Shown: positions 38,469-52,350 of the stretch, piece by piece
Layout of the letters: every line of letters starts with the position of its first letter
Position numbering within the stretch: position 1 is the first letter of the stretch
NCBI RefSeq assembly: GCF_017571465.1
Contig: NZ_JAGETV010000013.1
Span: forward strand, 1 to 64,000
From: Thiomicrorhabdus marina
Lineage (GTDB): Bacteria > Pseudomonadota > Gammaproteobacteria > Thiomicrospirales > Thiomicrospiraceae
Direction of reading: 5' to 3'
Length of the DNA: 64,000 bases
Position numbers and translations under genes: made by a program
Notes under the pieces: model-generated
The model's input: only the letters and a program-made list of their open reading frames with translations
What the model was told of the DNA's origin: nothing
The model's database searches: none

Positions 38469-38524
38469 CTTAGTTGTCATCTTCATTTCTTACACTCAAT
38501 ATAAGCCTATCTCTCTTTCTGCTT

Positions 38525-39418
38525 ATGTTGCGTTATTTTCTGATTTTTACCTTCGTTGTGTTGTCCCCCAAGCTGTTCGCTAGTGATACGTTGCCCACTG
38601 AAGCCGATAAATCGGTTGAAGAGTTATTGGCAGTCAAGCTAAATGTCGACATTGATAATTTCCACAATGCCAAGATTGAACAGGGCGGCGGCTATGATGT
38701 GAAACACGCCAAATATGAGATTGGTAACTTCATTGTCAGTGCTGCATACGAACAGTTTGCCGTGGATTGGAATGGGCTTTCGCAATTGCCGTTTGGTGAT
38801 GGAAAGCAAGTGCCGATGAGCGATTTGCAACGTTTGACTTTAAAAGGACATATTCCGTATCGTTTAGATGAAAAGCGAATGTGGCTTGGGCATCTAGCCG
38901 CGGAATGGGCTTATGAAGAGCAGATGGATGATGCGCTCAGTTTGCAGGCATATCTGATTTACAGTCAATATTGGCAATCGCTGAAATCATGGCAAATTGG
39001 TGCCTACGTTAATTACCATCCAGTGGAGACCTTATACCTCCCAATAATTGAATACACCTATAACTATCCGTTTAAAAATCGTCACGGCTATTACGGTCAT
39101 CTCGGTTTTCCCAAATCCATTGTCGGTTATTTTTTGTCCCCAAAACTACGCACCGAAGTAGGCTTTTTCTATCATCAAGCGATGGTTAAGCTCGCCGAGC
39201 AAAGTGTGGTTGAACCAGCCGGATATTTACAATCGCAAAATTGGCGTGCCAGTTGGCGTACGCACTATCAATGGAACAGCGATCTTGAGTTGCATCTAGG
39301 CTTGCAGACCAATATTTCCAACACACTGACGTTATACGATCAAAACAACCAACGCCAAGGCGAATATGCAGTGAATAATGGAGTTGGCGGAAACTTGGGG
39401 TTTAGTTTTAGGTTTTAA
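38525..39418 (+). CDS. Outer-membrane beta-barrel protein, function unknown
   Basis: The 297-aa protein begins with a good signal peptide (MLRYFLIFTFVVLSPKLFA), then many short amphipathic strands with aromatic girdles (WQIGAYVNYHP, YYGHLGFPKSIVGYF) and ends GNLGFSFRF with terminal Phe, all typical of an outer-membrane barrel of about 12 strands, possibly DUF6268-like. Motifs of phospholipase A (His-Ser-Asn) are missing. A TTG at 38474 extends the frame but adds an odd N-terminus; ATG at 38525 gives the standard leader. No ribosome site is clear. Function and substrate unknown. Confidence 0.6.
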   Translation: MLRYFLIFTFVVLSPKLFASDTLPTEADKSVEELLAVKLNVDIDNFHNAKIEQGGGYDVKHAKYEIGNFIVSAAYEQFAVDWNGLSQLPFGDGKQVPMSDLQRLTLKGHIPYRLDEKRMWLGHLAAEWAYEEQMDDALSLQAYLIYSQYWQSLKSWQIGAYVNYHPVETLYLPIIEYTYNYPFKNRHGYYGHLGFPKSIVGYFLSPKLRTEVGFFYHQAMVKLAEQSVVEPAGYLQSQNWRASWRTHYQWNSDLELHLGLQTNISNTLTLYDQNNQRQGEYAVNNGVGGNLGFSFRF

Positions 39419-39583
39419 AGTCAATGTGTCCGAATATTAACCGTTATAAATGGTGTTTATGAAAAGTCTCTATAAATACTTTGAAATAGTTGGTAATCAC
39501 TGTTTAAGTGCGGCTTAGTTATGTATTAAAAATAATTACTTAGCGATATATAATATTTTGAATTATTCAAAGGGTTGTTGATA

Positions 39584-40213
39584 TTGTCTAAGTTTGATCT
39601 TGCTCATTTGTTAAAAGATTTGGTTGTCCAAACAGGACTTTCTAAGAAAGCGCTTGCGGAACAAGCCAAAATCTCTCGTCAAAGTCTATACAACCTATTA
39701 AATGGTGATATTTCTGAGGTTAAGGTTTCTACCTTGGTTAACTTGGCTTCCGCACTACGTGTCCATCCTTTAGAGTTATTAAGACCCTACTTTAATGGCT
39801 ATATACTTGATTGTGACAGCCGCTCTTCATCCAATCTTATAAAAGGTTTAAATGCCGGATTTATTGAAGATGTCACCTATCCTGATTATTCTTCGGTAAG
39901 TGTTAATCAGACCTTTGATAAAACGTGGCTGGTTATCAACACCGGCAGCGTGCCTTGGGAAGATCTGTATTTAGTTTGCCAAGATGAACCGTGTGAAATA
40001 CGAGGGTTGTGCGTTGGCCTCAAACCGCAATATAGAAAAATTCCTATCCCATATACCTTGCCAGGCGAGAAAGTCGAGTTGACTGTTACTCTAACGGCAC
40101 CAGTGATTCCGGGGAGTGTGCGTTCTGAATGGAAAGCCGAAAATGTACAAGGGCAATTGGTTTTAGGCAGCAAGTTTCCGCTGTACTGTTTAGTGAAAGT
40201 TGTCAGTTTATAG
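39584..40213 (+). CDS. XRE-type regulator fused to NBR1-like FW (Ig-like) domain
   Basis: The 209-aa protein has a Cro/CI-type helix-turn-helix (LAHLLKDLVVQTGLSKKAL, then ISRQSLYNLLNGD, residues about 5-60). From residue 95 on it has an Ig-like domain with the FW (four-tryptophan, next-to-BRCA1) pattern: FDKTWLVINTGSVPWEDLYL, LPGEKVELTVTLTAPVIPG, SEWKAENVQGQLVLG and a final LYCLVKVV strand. No ATG is available near the start; TTG at 39584 lies 9 bases after AAAGGG and is my choice (TTG 39578 is possible). It ends 10 bp before a TonB-dependent receptor, so the two form one unit. FW domains bind proteins in eukaryotes; its partner here is unknown. Confidence 0.75.
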   Translation: MSKFDLAHLLKDLVVQTGLSKKALAEQAKISRQSLYNLLNGDISEVKVSTLVNLASALRVHPLELLRPYFNGYILDCDSRSSSNLIKGLNAGFIEDVTYPDYSSVSVNQTFDKTWLVINTGSVPWEDLYLVCQDEPCEIRGLCVGLKPQYRKIPIPYTLPGEKVELTVTLTAPVIPGSVRSEWKAENVQGQLVLGSKFPLYCLVKVVSL

Positions 40214-40223
40214 AATTCGAAAT

Positions 40224-42209
40224 ATGAACAGCGGAATCAGGTTGTCTTTGATCACCCTTAGCGTAGTGCAGAGTTTGAATGTTTTGGCTTCGGAGTTACC
40301 GTCGGTTGACGTTTACAGTGCAGATGAGGTTTATCTTAATGAAACGGCGCAAACTAAACAGACATTGAGTACCGAAGAACTTGATCAGCGTCAGGCGACT
40401 AAATTAGAAGAATTAGCGATTTATTTGCCAAATATTCAGGCCGCACGAGTTGGCGCAGGCGGTTCGGAAGATTTTATTATTCGCGGTTTTTCTCTGGGCG
40501 GTCGTTTAATGCTCGATGGCGTTTTAGGCAACCAAAATCGTTTTGTTCGTGATCCGGCAACCCTTGATTCGGTCGAATTCGTAAAAGGTCACGCCAGTGT
40601 GTTGTATGGTTCAGGAGCACCGGGTGGAACCGTTAATTTTGTCTCCAAAAAACCGCAGGCCAAACAGGAAAATACCTTCAAAGTCGTCTTTGGAAATGAT
40701 AACTACAAGCGTTCGGTGATTGATTCAACAGGTGCTTTGGCTGATAGCTTGAGCTATCGCACGATTCTGGCTGGAACCGATGCGGATACTTGGAAAGAAA
40801 ATGTTCGTGATCGCCAGTTCACTTTTATGAATGTTTTGGATTGGCAATATAATTCGGGCGGAAAACTCTCGGCAACTTATGAGATTTCGCATCAAACTTA
40901 CCCATGGGATTTTGATAATGTCTATGCTAACGGAGCGCCGGTTTACGATGTGTCCTATGTGCATCCGGCGACCTCGAATGATCAATGGTATCAGCGCCTC
41001 TCTTTAGGTTGGGAGCAGGCGATAGACGAACACTCATGGATTGAAGCTCAGACCTATGTTTATGTCGGCGATCGCGAAGAGCGTAAAGTCGGTTTCTATT
41101 TTTTATGGCGGGATGATCAGCCACTGTTCGGCTACTATCAAGACAGTACCGATGACTATTTGCAAGCATCCGGAAAAATCGCCTATTTGCGCAATTATCA
41201 GTTAGGCGATTGGCAAGGCACTTGGCAATTCGGTTTATCAAAAGTTTGGTTAGACGATAAGTTCGATAGTGACTTGGCCGCTTATACCTTTACCCTTGAT
41301 ATCTATAACCCGGATTTTGATGTTGAGTTGCCGAGCAAAGATCAACTGGCGCCAAGAGATATTTATACCAAAACCGCAGAACGCGGCGTTTTTCTGTTTA
41401 ATCAAATGGAATTGGCAGACGAGTTGAGTTTATCGTTTGGTTTACGTAAGTCGAATTTTGAAACCCGCCAGACGATTAATGATAATCAAAGCATCGACAA
41501 CCAAAATTCCGATATCAGCTACAGTGCCGGCATGATTTGGGAATTTGCGGTAAACCATAAACTTTATGCCAGTTACAGCGATTCGTTTTTACCGAATGTG
41601 GATACCGACCGGAATGGCGAATCCTTTGATCCTAAAGAAGGTGTGCAGTATGAATTAGGTTGGCTGTATCAGCCGTCTTCCAATTTGCACCTGCAATTAA
41701 GCGCTTTCGATATTACGCAAACCAACCTCTTGACGGATGACCCGAATGATCCTGCCTATTCGGTTTTGGCGGGAACTTATAAAGCCAGAGGTATTGAGTT
41801 GGCAAGTCAGTGGCAAATCACGCCGCAACTCAAGTCAACGCTGAATATCGGGCTGATAAAAGGCTATGTTGCCGAAGACAATAACGGAAATGAAGGCAAT
41901 GATTTCTTTAGTGTTCCAAAACGCAATGGTTCACTTTGGTTAAGCTATCAAGCCAATTCGCAATGGCTGTTACAGGGTGGTGCCGTCTATCAAGGCAAGC
42001 GCGCCGGTGATTTAGCCAATAGCTTCTATGTTGATGCTTACACTCGTTACGATGCGGCCATTCAATACCAAGCCGATAAACAAAACCGCTTTAACTTCAC
42101 AGTACAAAATCTCACCGACATTAACTATGTTAGCTACAGCTCCCTAAATGACTACGTTCGTTTTGGCGATCCGCGTACCATTCGCTTAGGTTGGACGCAT
42201 CACTTCTAA
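40224..42209 (+). CDS. TonB-dependent siderophore-type receptor
   Basis: The 661-aa protein has a signal peptide (residues 1-22, SLNVLA), a TonB-box-like LPSVDVYSA, a plug domain (QTLSTEELDQRQATKLEELA, FIIRGFSLGGRLMLDGV, DSVEFVKGHASVLYGSGAPGGTVNFVSKKP) and a 22-strand barrel ending GDPRTIRLGWTHHF. It resembles the FhuA/FpvA siderophore group. There is no N-terminal signalling domain, so it should not drive a sigma/anti-sigma pair. Control is more likely by the XRE-FW protein directly upstream (10 bp). ATG at 40224 matches the leader; the longer frame from 40200 overlaps the regulator. Confidence 0.85.
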   Translation: MNSGIRLSLITLSVVQSLNVLASELPSVDVYSADEVYLNETAQTKQTLSTEELDQRQATKLEELAIYLPNIQAARVGAGGSEDFIIRGFSLGGRLMLDGVLGNQNRFVRDPATLDSVEFVKGHASVLYGSGAPGGTVNFVSKKPQAKQENTFKVVFGNDNYKRSVIDSTGALADSLSYRTILAGTDADTWKENVRDRQFTFMNVLDWQYNSGGKLSATYEISHQTYPWDFDNVYANGAPVYDVSYVHPATSNDQWYQRLSLGWEQAIDEHSWIEAQTYVYVGDREERKVGFYFLWRDDQPLFGYYQDSTDDYLQASGKIAYLRNYQLGDWQGTWQFGLSKVWLDDKFDSDLAAYTFTLDIYNPDFDVELPSKDQLAPRDIYTKTAERGVFLFNQMELADELSLSFGLRKSNFETRQTINDNQSIDNQNSDISYSAGMIWEFAVNHKLYASYSDSFLPNVDTDRNGESFDPKEGVQYELGWLYQPSSNLHLQLSAFDITQTNLLTDDPNDPAYSVLAGTYKARGIELASQWQITPQLKSTLNIGLIKGYVAEDNNGNEGNDFFSVPKRNGSLWLSYQANSQWLLQGGAVYQGKRAGDLANSFYVDAYTRYDAAIQYQADKQNRFNFTVQNLTDINYVSYSSLNDYVRFGDPRTIRLGWTHHF

Positions 42210-42231: not shown

Positions 42232-42440
42232 GTCACCCAGAACCAAGAGCGAAGTGTGCCGATCTAAAATAGTTTCTTTCTCGGGGCTTTAATGGATTGC
42301 TTCACTACGTTCGCAATGACTGGCTGCTTATCATCGAGAGCGGAGCGTGGCGATCTAATAATTTCTTTCTGTCCCCAAATCTTTAAAAAAGTTTAAGTTC
42401 TTGTGCTCGGTGTCCAACTTTTTGGACACCTTGTTTGTTA
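42232..42440. repeat. Dispersed repeat B, long copy with 22-base hairpin
   Basis: This is the main content of the 408-bp gap between the TonB receptor and the next gene. It has AGCGAAGTGTGCCGATCT, GGATTGCTTCACTACGTTCG, CATCGAGAGCGGAGCGTGG and then a perfect 9-bp hairpin GGTGTCCAA-CTTT-TTGGACACC (42409-42430). The same order, including the hairpin, recurs at 47630-47790. The rest of the gap holds only an AT-rich leader; I see no gene. Confidence 0.75.
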
Positions 42441-44124: not shown

Positions 44125-45441
44125 ATGGCTATGATATTTACGCTACAAATTTTTCATCATCAAGTCTGGCAGGATGCAGCGAGCTTAGCGGTTGATTTGG
44201 AAACTAGGCAGGTCTCATTAGAGTATCTGGACGGCTATAAGGTTGCCTATCTTTTTGAAAACTTAGAAACCGCTTGTTCAGTCAACTATCCGGTGGAAAT
44301 TTTTCAAACTTATCGTAGGCAGGGTTGGTTTGGATTCATTGATGATATTTTGCCTTCCGGTTCCAGCCGTCGTTACTGGCTACAAAAACTGGGGATCGCT
44401 GAGTTATCCGTCTGGCAACAAGATTTGCAGTTATTGCAGGAAGCGGTAATCGCTCCGGTCGGCAATTTGCGCATTAAAGAGGCGGTTCCGGAAAAATTCG
44501 AAGATAGCTTGCAGCAAAAGCGTTTTTCAATCCAAGAGGTGATTTCGCTGAATATCGATTTTCTTGAATACGCACAAGAGATGGGTGCGGTTAGTGGCGG
44601 TGCGACCGGCGCCGGCGGCGAAGCGCCAAAATTATTAGTACGTCAAAGCGATGATCAGCAAATCTGGATTGATACCTATCAAGATGATTTAGACAACTTA
44701 GATCAACACTATCTGGTCAAGTTTCCACGAGGCAGAGGCGCTTTACGGGATCGTCAAATCTTGCAGGCCGAGTATGCTTATCTGCAAGAACTGCATCGTT
44801 TACAGATGAATGCGATTGATATAAGCAAAACTCGACTCGAAATTGAAGGTGAGGCCATGTCGTTATGGTTACCAAGGTTTGATGTGTGTTATCAATCCGG
44901 CAAGGTCGAACATTTTGCGCTGGAATCAGTCTTCTCGATTTTAGAAAAACCGGCCGGAAGCGTTTTGAATCATTTTGACGTGATTGACGGTGTGTGTGAT
45001 AAGTTACGCAATGCACAAACATTTGATTCAGAGGCTTTTGTTCGAGAGTGGGTTAAGCGGGATTTTTTGAATGTGATATTTGCTAATTCCGATAACCATG
45101 GCCGAAACAGCGCGTTGATAAAAAAACATGGGCATATCGAACTATCGCCGATTTATGACTTTGCGCCAATGCGCGCTGACTTAGAGCAAATTGTCCGTAC
45201 TATCAAATGGGGAAGGCCGTACGAAGCCGGTGGTGAATTTGACTGGCAAGGGATTGTCGATCAATTAAATGAATTAACCGATACCGAAAGGCTCTGGCAA
45301 GAAATGCGTCAGCTCGCAAGCCAATTGTTAGGCTTGAAACAGCGATTAGTTGAATACGGGGTGGATGAAGATTTTTTGGAAATTCCTGTATTGGGAATGA
45401 ATACCATTGATGCCCGACTACAGCGGTGGCAACTATTATGA
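44125..45441 (+). CDS. HipA-type serine/threonine kinase toxin 1
   Basis: The 438-aa protein has the HipA layout: N-terminal subdomain (FLDGYK-like EYLDGYKVAYLF), P-loop SGGATGAGGEAPKLL (156-170), catalytic Asp323 in FANSDNHGRNS, and metal Asp345 in SPIYDFAPM. All key residues are intact. E. coli HipA phosphorylates glutamyl-tRNA synthetase; the target here is unknown. The stop overlaps the antitoxin start as ATGA (45438-45441), so the order is toxin first, the reverse of hipBA. No ribosome site precedes the ATG at 44125, which suggests weak translation. Alternative start: 44131. Confidence 0.85.
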   Translation: MAMIFTLQIFHHQVWQDAASLAVDLETRQVSLEYLDGYKVAYLFENLETACSVNYPVEIFQTYRRQGWFGFIDDILPSGSSRRYWLQKLGIAELSVWQQDLQLLQEAVIAPVGNLRIKEAVPEKFEDSLQQKRFSIQEVISLNIDFLEYAQEMGAVSGGATGAGGEAPKLLVRQSDDQQIWIDTYQDDLDNLDQHYLVKFPRGRGALRDRQILQAEYAYLQELHRLQMNAIDISKTRLEIEGEAMSLWLPRFDVCYQSGKVEHFALESVFSILEKPAGSVLNHFDVIDGVCDKLRNAQTFDSEAFVREWVKRDFLNVIFANSDNHGRNSALIKKHGHIELSPIYDFAPMRADLEQIVRTIKWGRPYEAGGEFDWQGIVDQLNELTDTERLWQEMRQLASQLLGLKQRLVEYGVDEDFLEIPVLGMNTIDARLQRWQLL

Positions 45442-45734
45442 AAAATCAAAACAGCAAAGAACAACTCATGATCGAAGGCTTAAAACAAGTTTGGGCCGGA
45501 GAGAAAACCGAAGGTGAATTACTGCGTTATTTGCGCAAAGAAATCTTAGGGCTTACTCAACAACAATACAGTCAGCTAGCCGGTATTAGTCGCCGAACGC
45601 TATCCGATATTGAAAATGGAAAAATCCAAGCCAATAGCGCTGTGCTAAACCAAGCTTTTAAACCGCTCGGGTTAAAACTTGGCCTTGTTCCTCGTTTTGA
45701 AAATCACTGGCAACAACTGCTTTCTACGAATTAG
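45438..45734 (+). CDS. XRE antitoxin of first hip unit (HipB-like)
   Basis: The protein is 98 aa from MKNQNSKEQLMIEGLKQVW. Residues about 30-85 form a Cro/CI-type HTH: LRKEILGLTQQQYSQLAGIS, RTLSDIENGKIQANSAVL. ATG at 45438 is within the hipA stop (ATGA), giving coupling; GGTGG lies 9 bases before. The frame is open to 45426 but the ATGA start is the natural one. It should bind HipA and repress the unit at the GAG-N10-CTC sites. Confidence 0.8.
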   Translation: MKNQNSKEQLMIEGLKQVWAGEKTEGELLRYLRKEILGLTQQQYSQLAGISRRTLSDIENGKIQANSAVLNQAFKPLGLKLGLVPRFENHWQQLLSTN

Positions 45735-45861: not shown

Positions 45862-45932
45862 TTGACACGAAATTAAAAGGTTAATATACTAGCTGTTAAA
45901 TATTATAAAAACTAATATACTGTCTAATATTA
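45862..45932 (+). promoter_or_regulatory. Consensus sigma-70 promoter and operators of second hip unit
   Basis: TTGACA (45862-45867), 17-base spacer, TATACT (45885-45890): a near-perfect promoter. Two related sites overlap or follow it: TAATAT-N12-ATATTA (45882-45905) and TAATAT-N8-ATATTA (45913-45932, the last base being the A of the start codon). The N8 dyad has the same geometry as E. coli HipB sites (TATCC-N8-GGATA). Confidence 0.6.
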
Positions 45933-47140
45933 TGGAAGATGAATTTAAGACGACCTTACAGCTGAACGGTGTAGACATTGATATAGGAACTCTATACTCA
46001 ATACCAGGCCGCAAGGAAATGATTTCATTTGAATACAGTGAAGATTTTCTGTCGTCTCCAGATTTTATCAATATCGACCCCCTGCTTTCAAAGGCCCGAG
46101 GACGTCAATACCCGCCTGCTGACAAAAATAACTTTGGATTCATTGAAGATGTTTCTCCTGACCGATGGGGGCGCAATCTTCTTAAAAAGAAAATTGGCCG
46201 TGCCCCCTCAAATATTGAGGCAACCATTTTGACAAGTGACTCAATGCGACTTGGCGGGATAAGAATTTGGGATTCAAATGGAGAGCCACTATCCAAGGAT
46301 CCAAGTATTCCAACCTTGAAAAATATTAGAGAGCTGCAAAATCTTGCTCGTAAGGCAGAAGAGTTTGATACAGATATTCAGGAACTTTACGGTCCAGGTT
46401 CTTCATTGGGAGGCGCCAGACCAAAAGCCGGAATAATGGATGCCGGTAAATTAAAAATAGCGAAATTCCCAAAGAAGGACGATGTTATTAATATCGAGGC
46501 GTGGGAAAGCGTCATGCTTAAGCTTTGCGAGGATTGTGAAGGTATTACAACGGTTCCACATAGAATAATTAATAACAAAGAGCTCTCTCGGCATGCCACT
46601 CTTATTCTTGACCGGTTCGATCGTAATAATAATGGGGACAGAATACCCTATATGTCCGCTATGACAGCATTAGGGTATTCAGATGGAACCGACGATGGTT
46701 CTTACTTGGAAATTGCCGATTTCATTACTCAGTATGGCGATGTTAATGATGCGAAAGAGCTTTGGAAGAGAATGGTTTTTTCAATGCTTACTAGTAACTT
46801 TGATGATCATTTAAGAAACCATGGCTTTTTGTTAGCAGATGGAAAGTGGCGACTTTCACCTGTTTTTGATGTTAACCCTGCCTATGACAAAAACTTCCAT
46901 TCATTATCCAGTGACGGTGATTCATACGATGCAAATATCGAAAATGCTATCGGTATTTGCGGGTTCTTCTACTTGGATGAAATTGCGGCAACTCAGTGGA
47001 TCGAGAATACCGCTAAGCTAATATCTGAAAAGATGGAGAAATACTCAAAATTAAACGGAATTTCGACTTCTGAGTATGATGAAGTTACAAAAAACATGCT
47101 CGTTTTCTCTTTAGATGATTTCGGCTTGGAGCCTAAATAA
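45932..47140 (+). CDS. HipA-type serine/threonine kinase toxin 2
   Basis: The 402-aa protein belongs to a different HipA branch from the first. It starts MEDEFKTTLQLNGVD; P-loop GSSLGGARPK (156-165), catalytic Asp291 in SNFDDHLRNHGF, metal Asp313 in SPVFDVNP. Base use is more AT-rich than in the core genes, with few C-ending codons, which suggests transfer. No ribosome site lies in the 35-base leader behind the TATACT promoter. It shares one base with the next gene (TAATG). Target unknown. Confidence 0.85.
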   Translation: MEDEFKTTLQLNGVDIDIGTLYSIPGRKEMISFEYSEDFLSSPDFINIDPLLSKARGRQYPPADKNNFGFIEDVSPDRWGRNLLKKKIGRAPSNIEATILTSDSMRLGGIRIWDSNGEPLSKDPSIPTLKNIRELQNLARKAEEFDTDIQELYGPGSSLGGARPKAGIMDAGKLKIAKFPKKDDVINIEAWESVMLKLCEDCEGITTVPHRIINNKELSRHATLILDRFDRNNNGDRIPYMSAMTALGYSDGTDDGSYLEIADFITQYGDVNDAKELWKRMVFSMLTSNFDDHLRNHGFLLADGKWRLSPVFDVNPAYDKNFHSLSSDGDSYDANIENAIGICGFFYLDEIAATQWIENTAKLISEKMEKYSKLNGISTSEYDEVTKNMLVFSLDDFGLEPK

Positions 47141-47460
47141 TGAAAAGCAAAGCACTTGAATTTTTAAGCCCTGTTGTTCGTAAAAAACTAAAAAGTATTG
47201 GTAAAAACATTTCTATGGCCAGAAGACGACGCAAGCAGTCTCAAAAAGAGTTCGCAGAAAGGTGTCGAATCAGTATTACAACTCTGAAAAATATTGAATC
47301 TGGTGATCCCGCTGTTGGATTCGGCCTGTATGGCATGGCCTTACATGCTTTAGGTCTTTCGAATGATCTGGATTTAATTGGAGCACCGGAAAGAGATTCA
47401 CTCGGAAATTTAATTACGGAAAGCGAACTCCCTAAAAGAATTAAAAAATCAAAAAGCTAA
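47140..47460 (+). CDS. XRE antitoxin of second hip unit (HipB-like)
   Basis: The 106-aa protein has a Cro/CI HTH (IGKNISMARRRRKQSQKEFAER, SITTLKNIESGDPAVGFGLY) at about residues 20-75 and a C-terminal tail GAPERDSLGNLITESELPKR common in HipB-like proteins of this type. A GGAG site is 9 bases before its ATG, and the start overlaps the toxin stop by one base, so the antitoxin should be better translated than the toxin. It presumably binds the TAATAT-N8-ATATTA dyad. A hairpin follows. Confidence 0.8.
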   Translation: MKSKALEFLSPVVRKKLKSIGKNISMARRRRKQSQKEFAERCRISITTLKNIESGDPAVGFGLYGMALHALGLSNDLDLIGAPERDSLGNLITESELPKRIKKSKS

Positions 47461-47862: not shown

Positions 47863-48552
47863 ATGTTCAAAAACATCAGCAAACTTTTTGCAATATCAAC
47901 TCTCACTGTTCTTATAACTGCTTGTGGAGGAGGAACAAGCTCAGATGGCAACGCGCCTGTTGCGGATAATAAAACCTTATCCGATACCCTTTCGGCGCCC
48001 GTTATAAGTTCTGTGGCATCTGTCTCAAAAGGAGAGGTAGTCTTATCTTGGCAGGCTTCGGCAAGCCAGCAATCGCTGCAAGACGGCATACGATATTCGG
48101 CTTATGCCAGTAAAAATGAAGCTTTTGACCCTGGATCAACAAATCTGGTTAAAGATGATTTAACAATACAAAATGATACGTTAAAGGGGTTAGAACCCGG
48201 ATTAACTTACTACTTTAAAGTGGTTGCCAGTAATGGCACAGAAAAGGCGGTTTCCAATGAAGAAGCCGTGACGGTTTCTTTAGTAGAGGCAAAATTGGCA
48301 GCAGGTGTTACAGCAAAAAACACGGCCGATATAAAAACAAAAGTTGACAACATTCAAGACAACCAGCTGGCAATAGACCCGAATGATGGTTTACAACGGG
48401 GCGATGTTATTGTTGATGAATCCACCGGCACGGCGCTCATTATTGAGGATGTCGATGCAACTACTAATCAAGCTACTGTAAAACCAGCGGATGTTGGCGA
48501 TGTTTTTGAGTCTATATCCATCAATTCGTCAACCAGCCTTGAGCTGTACTAA
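47863..48552 (+). CDS. Lipoprotein with fibronectin type III domain
   Basis: The 229-aa protein has a lipoprotein signal with lipobox Cys21 (VLITACGGG), then one FN3-like domain at about residues 44-140 (LSAPVISSVASVSKGEVVLSW, YSAYASKNEAF, GLEPGLTYYFKVVASNGTE). The C-terminal part (140-229) is unlike anything I know: KNTADIKTKVDNIQDNQLAIDP and a short beta-rich VIVDESTGTALIIEDVD. It ends 12 bp before the LRR gene and is very likely co-transcribed with it, so it could anchor or present that protein. GGGA is a weak ribosome site. Confidence 0.65.
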   Translation: MFKNISKLFAISTLTVLITACGGGTSSDGNAPVADNKTLSDTLSAPVISSVASVSKGEVVLSWQASASQQSLQDGIRYSAYASKNEAFDPGSTNLVKDDLTIQNDTLKGLEPGLTYYFKVVASNGTEKAVSNEEAVTVSLVEAKLAAGVTAKNTADIKTKVDNIQDNQLAIDPNDGLQRGDVIVDESTGTALIIEDVDATTNQATVKPADVGDVFESISINSSTSLELY

Positions 48553-48564
48553 GGGGGGGTAAAA

Positions 48565-51500
48565 ATGAATAAAAAAACATTATTAACTTTGGCATCATTA
48601 TTTGCCTTATGCCTTTCTTTACTTTCACTTCCAGTGCAAGCAATTCAATATGACATTTCACCCGTTAAGTTTGGTAGCAGCACAGACGCTGTAGAGGTAA
48701 AAAAAGACCTAAAATTGGGTTTTGGTAAAGAATTGTTTCGATTAACGCACCCTTCAGTCATTGCATTCAATGCCTCAAAGGAAGAATACTTATCGATTAG
48801 CGTTGAATCCCCTTTCCCTTGGAGTGTGGCAGTTGCGAACATTGAGATTAAACAAAAAGGTTCAAGCGTAGCGGGTGATGTTCAATCACTGAGACTTAGA
48901 GGTGAAAAGGATATAGAAGGGCATAACTCTGGGAGTTTTGATTTAATCCATCTACCCATAGAATCTCAATATATTTCAAATGACCCATATGAATTAACGA
49001 TTACCTTCCAAGTCTATACAGACGACAGCAAAACAGAAGAAGTTAAAACGAGCCTAGACTTATACATTTTAGCGAGTGGTGATGCCGAGGATTTTAAACC
49101 TAAAACGTTTGAATTTGATACGTTGTTCTATTTGGATCAGCAAGATAAACCTAAAATTTCAGGTTTAGACATTATTACTGATGCTTCAACCTTAATAACA
49201 GAGCTAAAGTCTCTAGACTTAGAAAAACTAAAAAGAGACGCTGATTCAACGGCAGCTTCTTTCGGTGATGTTATTAGTGGCTTGGATGAACTCTTAACCA
49301 ATGACCTAAAGGCGGTTGTTGATACCAATGAACAAGCCGAGTTAGCGAAAAATCAAAATATACTCACTTTTTTGGCTGCTAAGAACATTGATGAAGTCAC
49401 CGAGCAAGACCTTGAACAAGTTAAAGGCCTCATAGCTAAGTATAATTCTGATTTTAATAATTTAAAATCGGGCTTACCTGACATTGGGCTATCAAAAGAG
49501 CAGATGGAATGTAAAGGTAATAGCGCTTGTAAAGCGTACATTAAATTGGCTGGAAGTGTTAATTTTAGGCCAGAGCTAATAAGCGAGCTAAACAAAGAAG
49601 AAAAAACGGGGCAGCTTTTACTTTACACTCCGTCTGAAAAACCCTTTTCATTCAATGTAAAGGCAACGGTGGGTGCTAACCAAGCTGTGGTAACACAATT
49701 TAAATCACCTAGAAAACGCTTGCTATCAAAACGTTTTTTTCAAGTTTATCCTACTCCTGTGGGCGTTCCGGTAGTGCTTTCGCAACGAATTAGTATGTTT
49801 GCCGAGGCGGAGTTTTCCGGTAAATTAAATGCAAATGCAGAATTAGAGTTTAATTTTGATCGAGAAGAGCTGTTTGCAATTGGCGCAGGTTTAAACGCAG
49901 CAGACTTTACATTGGATGGTGAAAACTGTACCGAATCGGTAACAGACAAAATTAAACTCTACAAATGCAGAGTAACCAAAAAAAATGCCATCACTGCAAC
50001 GGCCTCTATTGAGGGTGAAGCAGAGGCAGAGGCCACCTTATGGTTATATCCAGAAGTCGAGTTTATGCTGTACAGAAATGCAAGTGTCACGGGCTCTGTT
50101 GAACCAGGGGTTTATACTGCAGCATCGCTCGCAGCCAATATTGAATCGCAGGCGATAATAGATGATCAAGATCAAATCCAAGAAGGATCCCTTGATAAAA
50201 GTTACAGCTTTAAAAATTTTGAACTCGGTGCAAAGTTAAGAGGCCGTTTTAGAGCAGACTTTGGTTTGATTTATGAAAAAAGTGGAGAAGAAAAAACAGC
50301 AGGCATATGTTTTCCATTAGAACTTGGCATATGCAACCGAGAAGAGCGCTACGAATTTGGTGGTAATAATAAATTCCCTGTGGTGACTTTACCTAGCCTT
50401 AGCAGTACCGCTAAAAATGGTATTTTAGGTAAAGACTTCACCCTTGAAGCTAGGACAACATCAGGAAAACAATTTTTTGGCGATAACAACGTAGCTGGCT
50501 ATGAATGGCAAGCTATTGGCAAAGCCAAAGAGGTGTTTGCCGTCGATGCGTTTAATTATGAAATAGCCTTGCCGCTTAAAAACGGTGATATTGTTTCTCA
50601 ATTAGTCAAGGTTGCGGACAAAACCAAACTTGTCGTAGGTGAAAGCTATACAGTTAGACTCGTTTATTGGAGTGACTTAGGACAGCTATTCCGTCAAACT
50701 CAAGACTTTACCATTGCTTACAACCCGCCATCTGGGGATGTAAACTTGCAATTCTCCGCCACGCCGGAAAATAAAGTGACGGTGCAATGGGATGCAGTAG
50801 CTGGCGCAACAGAATACCTAATTTATCGTGATGGTGAGTTTATTCAGGCTTTTAATGCAACTGAAGAACTTAGTTTTTCCTTTGTAGATGAAACCAGCGA
50901 TAGTGCAACGGATTATACCTATCAAATCCTCCCTGCTTCTCAAGAAGGAATACAGTACAACCAACCTGTTTACGAATATACTAATGAGATTACCAAAGAG
51001 CCTTTAATTATCTCAGACTCTGCTTTAAAAGCCTGTATAAATAGAAAGCTTGGACTGGATCCTGAAGCGACGCCAACACGAAAACAATATTTATCTGTAA
51101 CAAGCTTGGTTTGTAGAGATGCAAATATTCAAGAGCTTAGCGGAATAGAAGATATGTCCGCTTTAAAAAGTCTATATTTAGATAATAATCAAATTAGTGA
51201 CCTAAGTGCTTTACAGAACTTAAGCTCATTGGTTGGGTTAGATTTACGTAATAACCAAATTAGTAATATAAATAGCTTGTCTGACCTAACCAATCTTGAA
51301 ACTTTAATGTTACAGGGTAACCAAATTGATGATATCAGTGCGTTGGCTAACATGAGTTTTCTAGACGCTTTAGGTCTTCATAACAATCATATTAGTGACT
51401 TAAGTAGCCTGCGCAACTTAACAAAGCTCAAATATCTATCTTTGTATGATAATGAAATTAATGAGGTTACTGCTTTAACAAGCCTGGCAGCACTAGAAAC

Positions 51501-52350
51501 TCTAGAGCTAAGTGATAATCAAATTAGTGATATTGGAGTTTTATCAAATCTTACTAATCTGGATCGTCTATATTTAGAAAATAACCAAATTAGTAATATC
51601 AATGCTTTAGCAAACCTATACTCATTAAGAACTTTAGAGTTAAGTGGTAACCAAATTGCTGACCTCAGTGCTTTAACGAACCTTTCCATGCTTAGGGTTT
51701 TATCTTTGTACAATAACCAGGTCAGTGATATTAGCAACTTGTCCAACTTAACAGAGTTGGAACGATTAGATTTAGATTTTAATGAGGTTAGTAATATCAG
51801 TAGTCTAAACAACTTAACTTCTCTGCAATCTTTGAGTCTATGGGGAAATCAAGTTAATGATATCAGTGCTGTAGCATCTTTAACTAAACTGCAATTTTTA
51901 GATTTTTCATTTAATCAAATTAAAGATATCAGTAGTTTAGTTAATCTGACGAATCTTACAGGTTTGACATTGTTTAATAATCAAATTAACGACATCAATA
52001 GTCTGTATCAAATGACTACGCTTAAATACCTGCATCTAAGCAATAATCAGATTACTGATCTCAGTGGCCTAGCTAATCTAACTAACCTAGCTAGGTTGAG
52101 TTTAAGTGTTAATCAAATCAGTGATGTGAGTCCTTTATCTAAATTATCCGTTGAGCTTGAGTTATCTATTGATGAAAACTGTATTCAAGATTTTTCACCA
52201 ATTGACCACATTAATGATGTCAGAGGAAAAAATAACCAAAATGAAACCTGTAACGAAGCTGGTGTGTCAAGTCAGGCAGGGGTTGAAAATGAGTCAGCAG
52301 ACGGTGGCGGGGGAAATGGTACGCCGACCACCCAAGAAGGAGATCGCTGA
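48565..52350 (+). CDS. Internalin-like secreted LRR protein, 1261 aa
   Basis: The protein has a signal peptide cleaved near residue 26 (PVQA, then IQ). The first 720 residues are a long beta-rich region I do not recognise, including helical linkers near 200-300. An FN3-like domain lies at about 722-815 (VTVQWDAVAGATEYLIYRDG). Residues 845-1196 are 16 leucine-rich repeats of exactly 22 residues (LxxLxLxxNQISDISxLxxLTx), the SDS22/internalin pattern, preceded by an N-cap with Cys (KACINRKLG, SLVCRD). The end is Gly-rich with no anchor motif. GGGGGGGT precedes the ATG. Such repeats bind proteins, so surface adhesion or recognition is likely; the ligand is unknown. Confidence 0.85.
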   Translation: MNKKTLLTLASLFALCLSLLSLPVQAIQYDISPVKFGSSTDAVEVKKDLKLGFGKELFRLTHPSVIAFNASKEEYLSISVESPFPWSVAVANIEIKQKGSSVAGDVQSLRLRGEKDIEGHNSGSFDLIHLPIESQYISNDPYELTITFQVYTDDSKTEEVKTSLDLYILASGDAEDFKPKTFEFDTLFYLDQQDKPKISGLDIITDASTLITELKSLDLEKLKRDADSTAASFGDVISGLDELLTNDLKAVVDTNEQAELAKNQNILTFLAAKNIDEVTEQDLEQVKGLIAKYNSDFNNLKSGLPDIGLSKEQMECKGNSACKAYIKLAGSVNFRPELISELNKEEKTGQLLLYTPSEKPFSFNVKATVGANQAVVTQFKSPRKRLLSKRFFQVYPTPVGVPVVLSQRISMFAEAEFSGKLNANAELEFNFDREELFAIGAGLNAADFTLDGENCTESVTDKIKLYKCRVTKKNAITATASIEGEAEAEATLWLYPEVEFMLYRNASVTGSVEPGVYTAASLAANIESQAIIDDQDQIQEGSLDKSYSFKNFELGAKLRGRFRADFGLIYEKSGEEKTAGICFPLELGICNREERYEFGGNNKFPVVTLPSLSSTAKNGILGKDFTLEARTTSGKQFFGDNNVAGYEWQAIGKAKEVFAVDAFNYEIALPLKNGDIVSQLVKVADKTKLVVGESYTVRLVYWSDLGQLFRQTQDFTIAYNPPSGDVNLQFSATPENKVTVQWDAVAGATEYLIYRDGEFIQAFNATEELSFSFVDETSDSATDYTYQILPASQEGIQYNQPVYEYTNEITKEPLIISDSALKACINRKLGLDPEATPTRKQYLSVTSLVCRDANIQELSGIEDMSALKSLYLDNNQISDLSALQNLSSLVGLDLRNNQISNINSLSDLTNLETLMLQGNQIDDISALANMSFLDALGLHNNHISDLSSLRNLTKLKYLSLYDNEINEVTALTSLAALETLELSDNQISDIGVLSNLTNLDRLYLENNQISNINALANLYSLRTLELSGNQIADLSALTNLSMLRVLSLYNNQVSDISNLSNLTELERLDLDFNEVSNISSLNNLTSLQSLSLWGNQVNDISAVASLTKLQFLDFSFNQIKDISSLVNLTNLTGLTLFNNQINDINSLYQMTTLKYLHLSNNQITDLSGLANLTNLARLSLSVNQISDVSPLSKLSVELELSIDENCIQDFSPIDHINDVRGKNNQNETCNEAGVSSQAGVENESADGGGGNGTPTTQEGDR
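51097..52152 (+). repeat. Sixteen 66-bp coding repeats (LRR)
   Basis: Codons 845-1196 of the LRR gene. Each unit is 66 bp, with AATAACCAAATTAGT-like and AATCTTACTAAT-like cores. Identity between units is high at some positions, so recombination between repeats could change their number. Confidence 0.85.

Follow-up and report, generated by a model that had tools for sequence, protein, structure and literature searches.

In the window analysed here, a stretch of 64,000 nucleotides from Thiomicrorhabdus marina, a gene for an XRE-type helix-turn-helix (HTH) protein fused to an FW domain of the type best known from the autophagy receptor NBR1 (XRE-FW) lies directly before a gene for a TonB-dependent receptor on the same strand, and XRE-FW genes are found beside receptors of the same subfamily in several other Gammaproteobacteria. 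It seems fairly probable that the two genes form an operon in which the regulator controls the receptor and the FW domain binds a signal. The XRE-FW fusion is already in print: it was named and described in 2012 by Marchbank et al. (PMC3357945), in proteins with the layout seen here, an XRE HTH at the N-terminus and an FW domain immediately after it at the C-terminus. What is new is the specific genomic link to one receptor subfamily. The section of that paper on XRE-FW proteins gives no gene neighbours, whereas we describe a receptor-linked subset. Among titles and abstract openings of the FW-domain and XRE-regulator literature we found no pairing of XRE-FW with a TonB receptor, which is not proof of novelty. 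The repeated pairing points to a definite gene as the target of a bacterial FW protein and to a signal route that can be tested. The two genes and the elements within them are the following.

39584-40213, + strand: XRE-FW regulator, 209 aa, TTG start (open reading frame and Pfam domains)
39570-39574, + strand: Shine-Dalgarno-like AAGGG (read from the sequence)
39611-39778, + strand: HTH_3 domain, residues 10-65 (Pfam; helices in the structure model)
39875-40195, + strand: FW (N_BRCA1_IG) domain, residues 98-204 (Pfam, profile, structure comparison)
40224-42209, + strand: TonB-dependent receptor, 661 aa, ATG start, Plug and barrel, siderophore-receptor type (Pfam, NCBIfam)

Both halves of the fusion that the original prediction had proposed are above the Pfam cut-offs in a scan of the 39584-40213 protein, HTH_3 with 36.5 bits against 23 and N_BRCA1_IG (PF16158) with 54.9 bits against 28. 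The FW profile, whose use had been suggested as a check, matches residues 98-204. With its XRE-type HTH at the N-terminus and the FW domain near the C-terminus of 209 residues, the protein has the XRE-FW layout, and it is the single FW match at E <= 0.001 in the Thiomicrorhabdus marina genome. The strings KTWLVINTGSVPW, LPGEKVELTVTLTAP and SEWK, quoted earlier from the FW-like part, are present in the translation. The coordinates and the TTG start given earlier are also correct; nine nucleotides separate AAGGG from the TTG at 39584, and the regulator frame ends at 40213, leaving a gap of 10 nucleotides before the receptor ATG at 40224.

Structure prediction, another of the suggested checks, gives the same picture, the C-terminal half being modelled as the Ig-like beta-sandwich of FW domains. 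The AlphaFold2 model, built on an alignment of nine XRE-FW proteins (A3; mean pLDDT 78.8, pTM 0.52), has five N-terminal helices, a low-confidence linker at residues 73-92 and a C-terminal part made up of seven strands. A Foldseek search with this model places the FW domains of NBR1 and ILRUN on top. By VIA-align the scores are Z 13.9 for ILRUN (6VHI; rmsd 1.7 over 106 residues), 12.9 for NBR1 (4OLE) and 11.7 for Ams1-bound CtNbr1 (7VQO), and no other Ig-like row exceeds 9.8. At the sequence level, too, CtNbr1 is recovered by a profile built from the nine XRE-FW proteins (E 8.6e-9). Three of the four tryptophans that give the domain its name are present (W115, W125 and W183), and the fourth position is an aromatic residue, Y201. 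Across 15 XRE-FW rows this position, fixed by eye and by MAFFT, is Y in nine, H in three (genus g277), S in two (G172 and G919) and W in one (G882). The window domain shares its fold with the FW domains of NBR1 and ILRUN and, by alignment, keeps counterparts of the pocket residues F, D, D and W of CtNbr1, but differs from them in its fusion to a DNA-binding domain, in having Y in place of the fourth tryptophan and in its occurrence in bacteria, which lack autophagy.

FW domains are sparsely distributed. PF16158 is matched in 3 of the 62 family genomes (the order comprises the same 62), in 15 of 369 of the class, in 4 of 398 of a phylum sample, in 3 of 116 of the family of G711, and in 14 of 199 of the genus g277, where 12 are above the cut-off. 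Dropped from the locus counts are a partial FW match (L029, 22.7 bits), the g277 matches below the cut-off (G1004, G1007), the loci outside Gammaproteobacteria (L054-L059) and three (L046, L047, L053) that duplicate L033, L034 and L035. Only two of the 15 FW-positive class genomes have an XRE-FW protein (G000 and G172). The other 13 show no visible XRE part, and 12 of them have two or three FW matches per frame (G093 has one). Judged by eye, ten of these 13 proteins have a signal-peptide-like start, the start of the other three being outside the piece or ambiguous. In the same 13 genomes (L005-L028), where most proteins have two or three FW domains, the D and W of the NBR1 pocket are replaced. 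A genome-collection scan with four XRE-FW proteins gave 15 loci. In G919 the HTH of the XRE-FW protein may be incomplete, because the first usual start codon of the open frame comes no earlier than residue 25. Published work also names Halorhodospira, Methylomonas, Marinospirillum and Vogesella in this context. Relatives on plasmids are limited to four records, three actinobacterial and one from Chloroflexota, and in an incomplete gene table no TonB receptor lies within 3.5 kb either side of three of them (H2, H3 and H4). A phage origin of XRE-FW was considered and rejected, with zero matches among 50,697 phage records. A foreign base composition of the gene pair was likewise rejected, its G+C of 0.39-0.45 being like that of the surroundings.

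The FW domain of CtNbr1 has been solved with its ligand: F651 and W763 flank the N-terminal Gly-Gly of Ams1, W672 and L762 lie beneath it, and D654 and D658 are close to its free amine (PMC9233695). The authors propose the reading of N-terminal peptides for other FW domains as well, and three bacterial XRE proteins are among the sequences in the alignment figure of that paper (PMC9233695). In a profile alignment, F93, D96, D101 and W115 of the regulator correspond to F651, D654, D658 and W672; since this alignment stops before the last strand, L200 and Y201 were set by eye opposite L762 and W763. The four aligned residues are invariant in all 15 XRE-FW rows, which take in only 3 of the 13 g277 proteins and leave out L051, whose frame is broken in the record. 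Among the 27 FW domains of the 13 other class genomes, the equivalent of D96 is Q in 21. F93 (kept in 16 of the 27) and D101 (kept in 6) are partly retained there, so that the contrast rests chiefly on D96 and W115. The same domains keep N119 (27/27), G121 (23/27), W125 (26/27) and W183 (26/27). As D96 and W115 are kept in XRE-FW proteins and almost wholly lost in these other domains, they are not simply required for the fold. Conservation of the predicted pocket in DNA-binding proteins is in keeping with a role in binding and speaks against one in structure alone, and it ties bacterial FW proteins to the binding mode solved in CtNbr1. That the pocket binds a signal is a possibility to which we give somewhat less than an even chance. 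It might instead be that the FW domain is a dimerisation module only, the protein being a ligand-free autorepressor and the receptor simply co-transcribed with it. Dimerisation is among the options of Marchbank et al. (PMC3357945), alongside the binding of small signalling molecules, and a palindrome in the window (see below) lies where an autorepressor would bind. Against such a role stand D96 and W115, present in 15 of 15 XRE-FW rows against 0 of 27 and 1 of 27 other FW domains, and we regard it as rather unlikely.

The receptor is of the siderophore-receptor type, passing the NCBIfam model TIGR01783 ('TonB-dependent siderophore receptor') with 258.4 bits against a cut-off of 223.5. As had been stated from the sequence, it has no signalling extension: the Pfam matches are a Plug domain from residue 39 and a beta-barrel, and no STN domain is found at E <= 0.01. 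Its closest solved structures by sequence are a chain labelled CntO (E 1.5e-42) and FoxA (6z8a, E 3.9e-42), with FhuA (1by3, E 1.9e-37) after them. The hydroxamate siderophore receptors FoxA and FhuA are therefore among its best solved sequence relatives, but none of the listed single-ligand NCBIfam models reached its cut-off with the window receptor. It has no near plasmid relative, as the best 12 of 1093 plasmid matches have only 27-29% identity. FecA-type TonB receptors are controlled by sigma/anti-sigma signalling. Like them, the window receptor would be under a dedicated neighbouring regulator; unlike them, it lacks an STN domain and its putative regulator is a one-component XRE protein. 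If this is true, XRE-FW proteins represent a further type of regulator for TonB receptors, besides those acting with STN-domain receptors.

A TonB receptor lies directly beside the XRE-FW gene in 7 of 26 gammaproteobacterial loci. Besides the window these are in G041 (L033), G044 (L034), G172 (L035), Vreelandella titanicae (L045), G711 (L065) and G882 (L081). The 19 loci without an adjacent receptor are those of G919, Thiothrix (L048, L050, L051, L052), a MAG (L049) and 13 members of the genus g277 (including G751), most of the g277 loci being viewed with flanks of 1.5 kb only. At E <= 1e-4 the receptor profile has no match in the available sequence around L048-L052, L063, L064 and L082. The regulator precedes the receptor in five of the seven pairs, with a gap of a few nucleotides or an overlap, depending on the start codon chosen. 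In G172 the receptor comes first, 4 nucleotides from the regulator, and in G882 the two genes are tail to tail. The outer neighbours of the pair differ between the window and G041, a member, like G044, of the same genus, showing that the pair stays together in different surroundings. The Thiomicrorhabdus marina genome has 13 TonB-barrel matches, so that, at an assumed 0.92 genes per kb, about 1% of its genes would lie beside a receptor. At an assumed rate of 2%, and with independence assumed, the probability is 6e-7 for 7 pairings in 26 loci and 8e-5 for pairing in 3 of 5 lineages. The enrichment of TonB receptors beside XRE-FW genes on which the original prediction depended is thus beyond chance, with 7 of 26 loci, one receptor subfamily and three arrangements. 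With 19 of 26 loci lacking an adjoining receptor, however, the FW domain does not serve TonB receptors in general.

The paired receptors are of one kind. In a search with a receptor profile (A2), the seven scored 641-1180 bits, against at most 311 (310.5) for other receptors. Four of the seven served to train A2, so that only three are independent of it, and these scored 771, 715 and 641 bits. A2 was run on 339 genomes of the class, 60 of the family, 114 of the family of G711 and 15 chosen genomes, in overlapping sets; at most three candidates per genome were scored in the class set and at most ten in the G711-family set, so that subfamily receptors may be missed. Eight receptors exceeded 450 bits: all seven of the paired set and an eighth, with 466 bits, in Thiothrix singaporensis, where the receptor and the XRE-FW gene are more than 0.5 Mb apart. 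All eight genomes with a subfamily receptor above 450 bits have an XRE-FW gene, although three (G041, V. titanicae and T. singaporensis) had been chosen for having one; the other five (window, G044, G172, G711, G882) turned up in searches made without regard to XRE-FW content, although one of them, the window, was itself the query. Conversely, by A2, XRE-FW occurs without a subfamily receptor in T. lacustris, T. caldifontis, the genome of L049, G919 and the six g277 genomes tested.

In a tree of the 15 XRE-FW rows, in which most inner branches are weak, five paired proteins and the unpaired G919 form a supported clade (97/96), while G172 and G882 lie outside this core clade on long branches. 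These five pairs out of seven share a clade and so do not represent five independent events. In a tree of 11 receptors, three of them other TonB receptors, G882 falls inside the core (100/99), even though its XRE-FW protein is outside the core clade. It may be that the receptor and an XRE-FW gene came together on more than one occasion; alternatively, the G882 regulator may have evolved fast. The long branches allow no firm choice between the two. The pair might also be the product of chance or hitchhiking, being inherited as a passenger block while the regulator acts elsewhere. Such inheritance would agree with the 19 of 26 XRE-FW loci that lie elsewhere, the five of seven pairs in one clade and the one unlinked subfamily receptor, but it fits poorly with three gene arrangements involving the same receptor subfamily, and with a G882 receptor that is nested in the core when its XRE-FW protein, allowing for the long branches, is not. 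We consider it improbable.

That one kind of receptor recurs beside this switch in several bacteria of distant relationship points to control of the receptor by the switch, and we think it fairly likely that the adjacent receptor is a target of the regulator. In the operon model that we prefer, the regulator and receptor genes would be co-transcribed and the HTH domain would bind an operator near their shared promoter. The NBR1-like pocket of the FW domain would accept a free amino end, carried by a ligand or partner, altering DNA binding, and supply of this presumed signal would set the expression of the receptor and, by putative autoregulation, of the regulator itself.

XRE-FW genes also have other neighbours of the envelope and transport type. 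In G717 (L063:5324-8433), a LysE-family gene ends 1 nucleotide from the XRE-FW stop, tail to tail with it, and a second lies about 1 kb before XRE-FW with another open reading frame between. By eye, a convergent LysE-family gene is present in 7 of 13 g277 loci. In G711 (L065:8006-11421), a Slam-type (SlipAM) gene and a gene with a TbpB_B_D domain are divergent from the XRE-FW/receptor pair, as an echo of known Slam/TbpB receptor loci (PMC8406197). Such genes were not seen among the scanned genes of the window, and of the seven paired loci, the others being partly scanned, they were found at G711 only. By analogy with the known Slam loci, this suggests that the G711 receptor may work with a surface or secreted binding protein. 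An outer-membrane-like family, recognised by eye and with no Pfam match at E <= 0.01, is common to the neighbourhoods of L045 (13041-13559), L048 (12403-13173) and L049 (9034-9681).

XRE-FW proteins could accordingly be general envelope or transport regulators that answer a free amino-end signal, with the TonB receptor, LysE-type and outer-membrane genes as different targets. The LysE genes of g277 and the Slam/TbpB genes of G711 suggest transport-related targets, and the outer-membrane-like family points the same way. Pfam confirmation, however, extends to the two LysE genes of G717 only, and envelope-type neighbours may be due to chance because envelope genes are common; on the whole we find this broader role unlikely. 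A more specific form of the operon model would make XRE-FW a one-component sensor whose NBR1-type pocket reads the free amino end of a peptide or peptide-like compound imported by the partner receptor. We offer this as speculation and consider it quite unlikely. If true, FW domains would have sensed peptides or amines in bacteria before serving as readers of autophagy cargo, and a TonB receptor would be controlled from inside the cell by its own imported cargo.

The control region of the pair contains the following candidate elements.

39526-39554, + strand: promoter-like TTAAAA-17-TATAAT, 10/12, just upstream of the regulator (consensus match only)
39557-39571, no strand: perfect palindrome TTTGAAT-t-ATTCAAA, candidate operator just past the -10 (sequence)
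42409-42430, + strand: terminator-like hairpin, 9 pairs, 200 nucleotides past the receptor (consensus match only)

The palindrome sits where transcription should start. It is absent upstream of relatives, which makes it a weak candidate operator. Promoter-like sites in the region number 7 against 6.9 expected from shuffles, and terminator-like hairpins 5 against 3.0. As the promoter sites occur at shuffle frequency and the palindrome is not conserved, this picture of the control region is suggestive only. Two further candidates were rejected. The best dyad common to six upstream regions, sought as a conserved operator, was no better than in shuffles, and matches to a Fur box (a 19-base consensus) were in none of nine upstream regions better than in shuffles (p 0.31 to 0.98).

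Several other genes lie around the pair. Upstream of the regulator, an outer-membrane-like gene (38474-39418) has no Pfam match over the cut-off and no relative in the other neighbourhoods, and we do not include it in the unit. Two HipBA-like modules in tandem (44125-45734 and 45932-47460) start 1.9 kb past the receptor; each HipA-like kinase gene has a small HTH gene close behind it, although in the second module the HTH match is just below the Pfam cut-offs. In two Thiothrix genomes a HipA-like gene is divergent from XRE-FW (L051:8338-9591 and L052:8336-9589). These genes are related to 45932-47140 of the window, with HipA_C and Couple_hipA matches by Pfam (L051 only). Further downstream, 48565-52350 encodes a protein of 1261 aa in which leucine-rich repeats are numerous (LRR_4, 205.7 bits); the gene before it, at 47863-48552, matches fn3 and Pur_ac_phosph_N just below the cut-offs. 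Finally, short XRE genes without an FW domain are found up to about 4 kb from XRE-FW in Thiothrix (L050:10689-10994, L052:12797-13096 and L051:13562-13843) and a related MAG (L049:10740-11105), and are perhaps duplicates.
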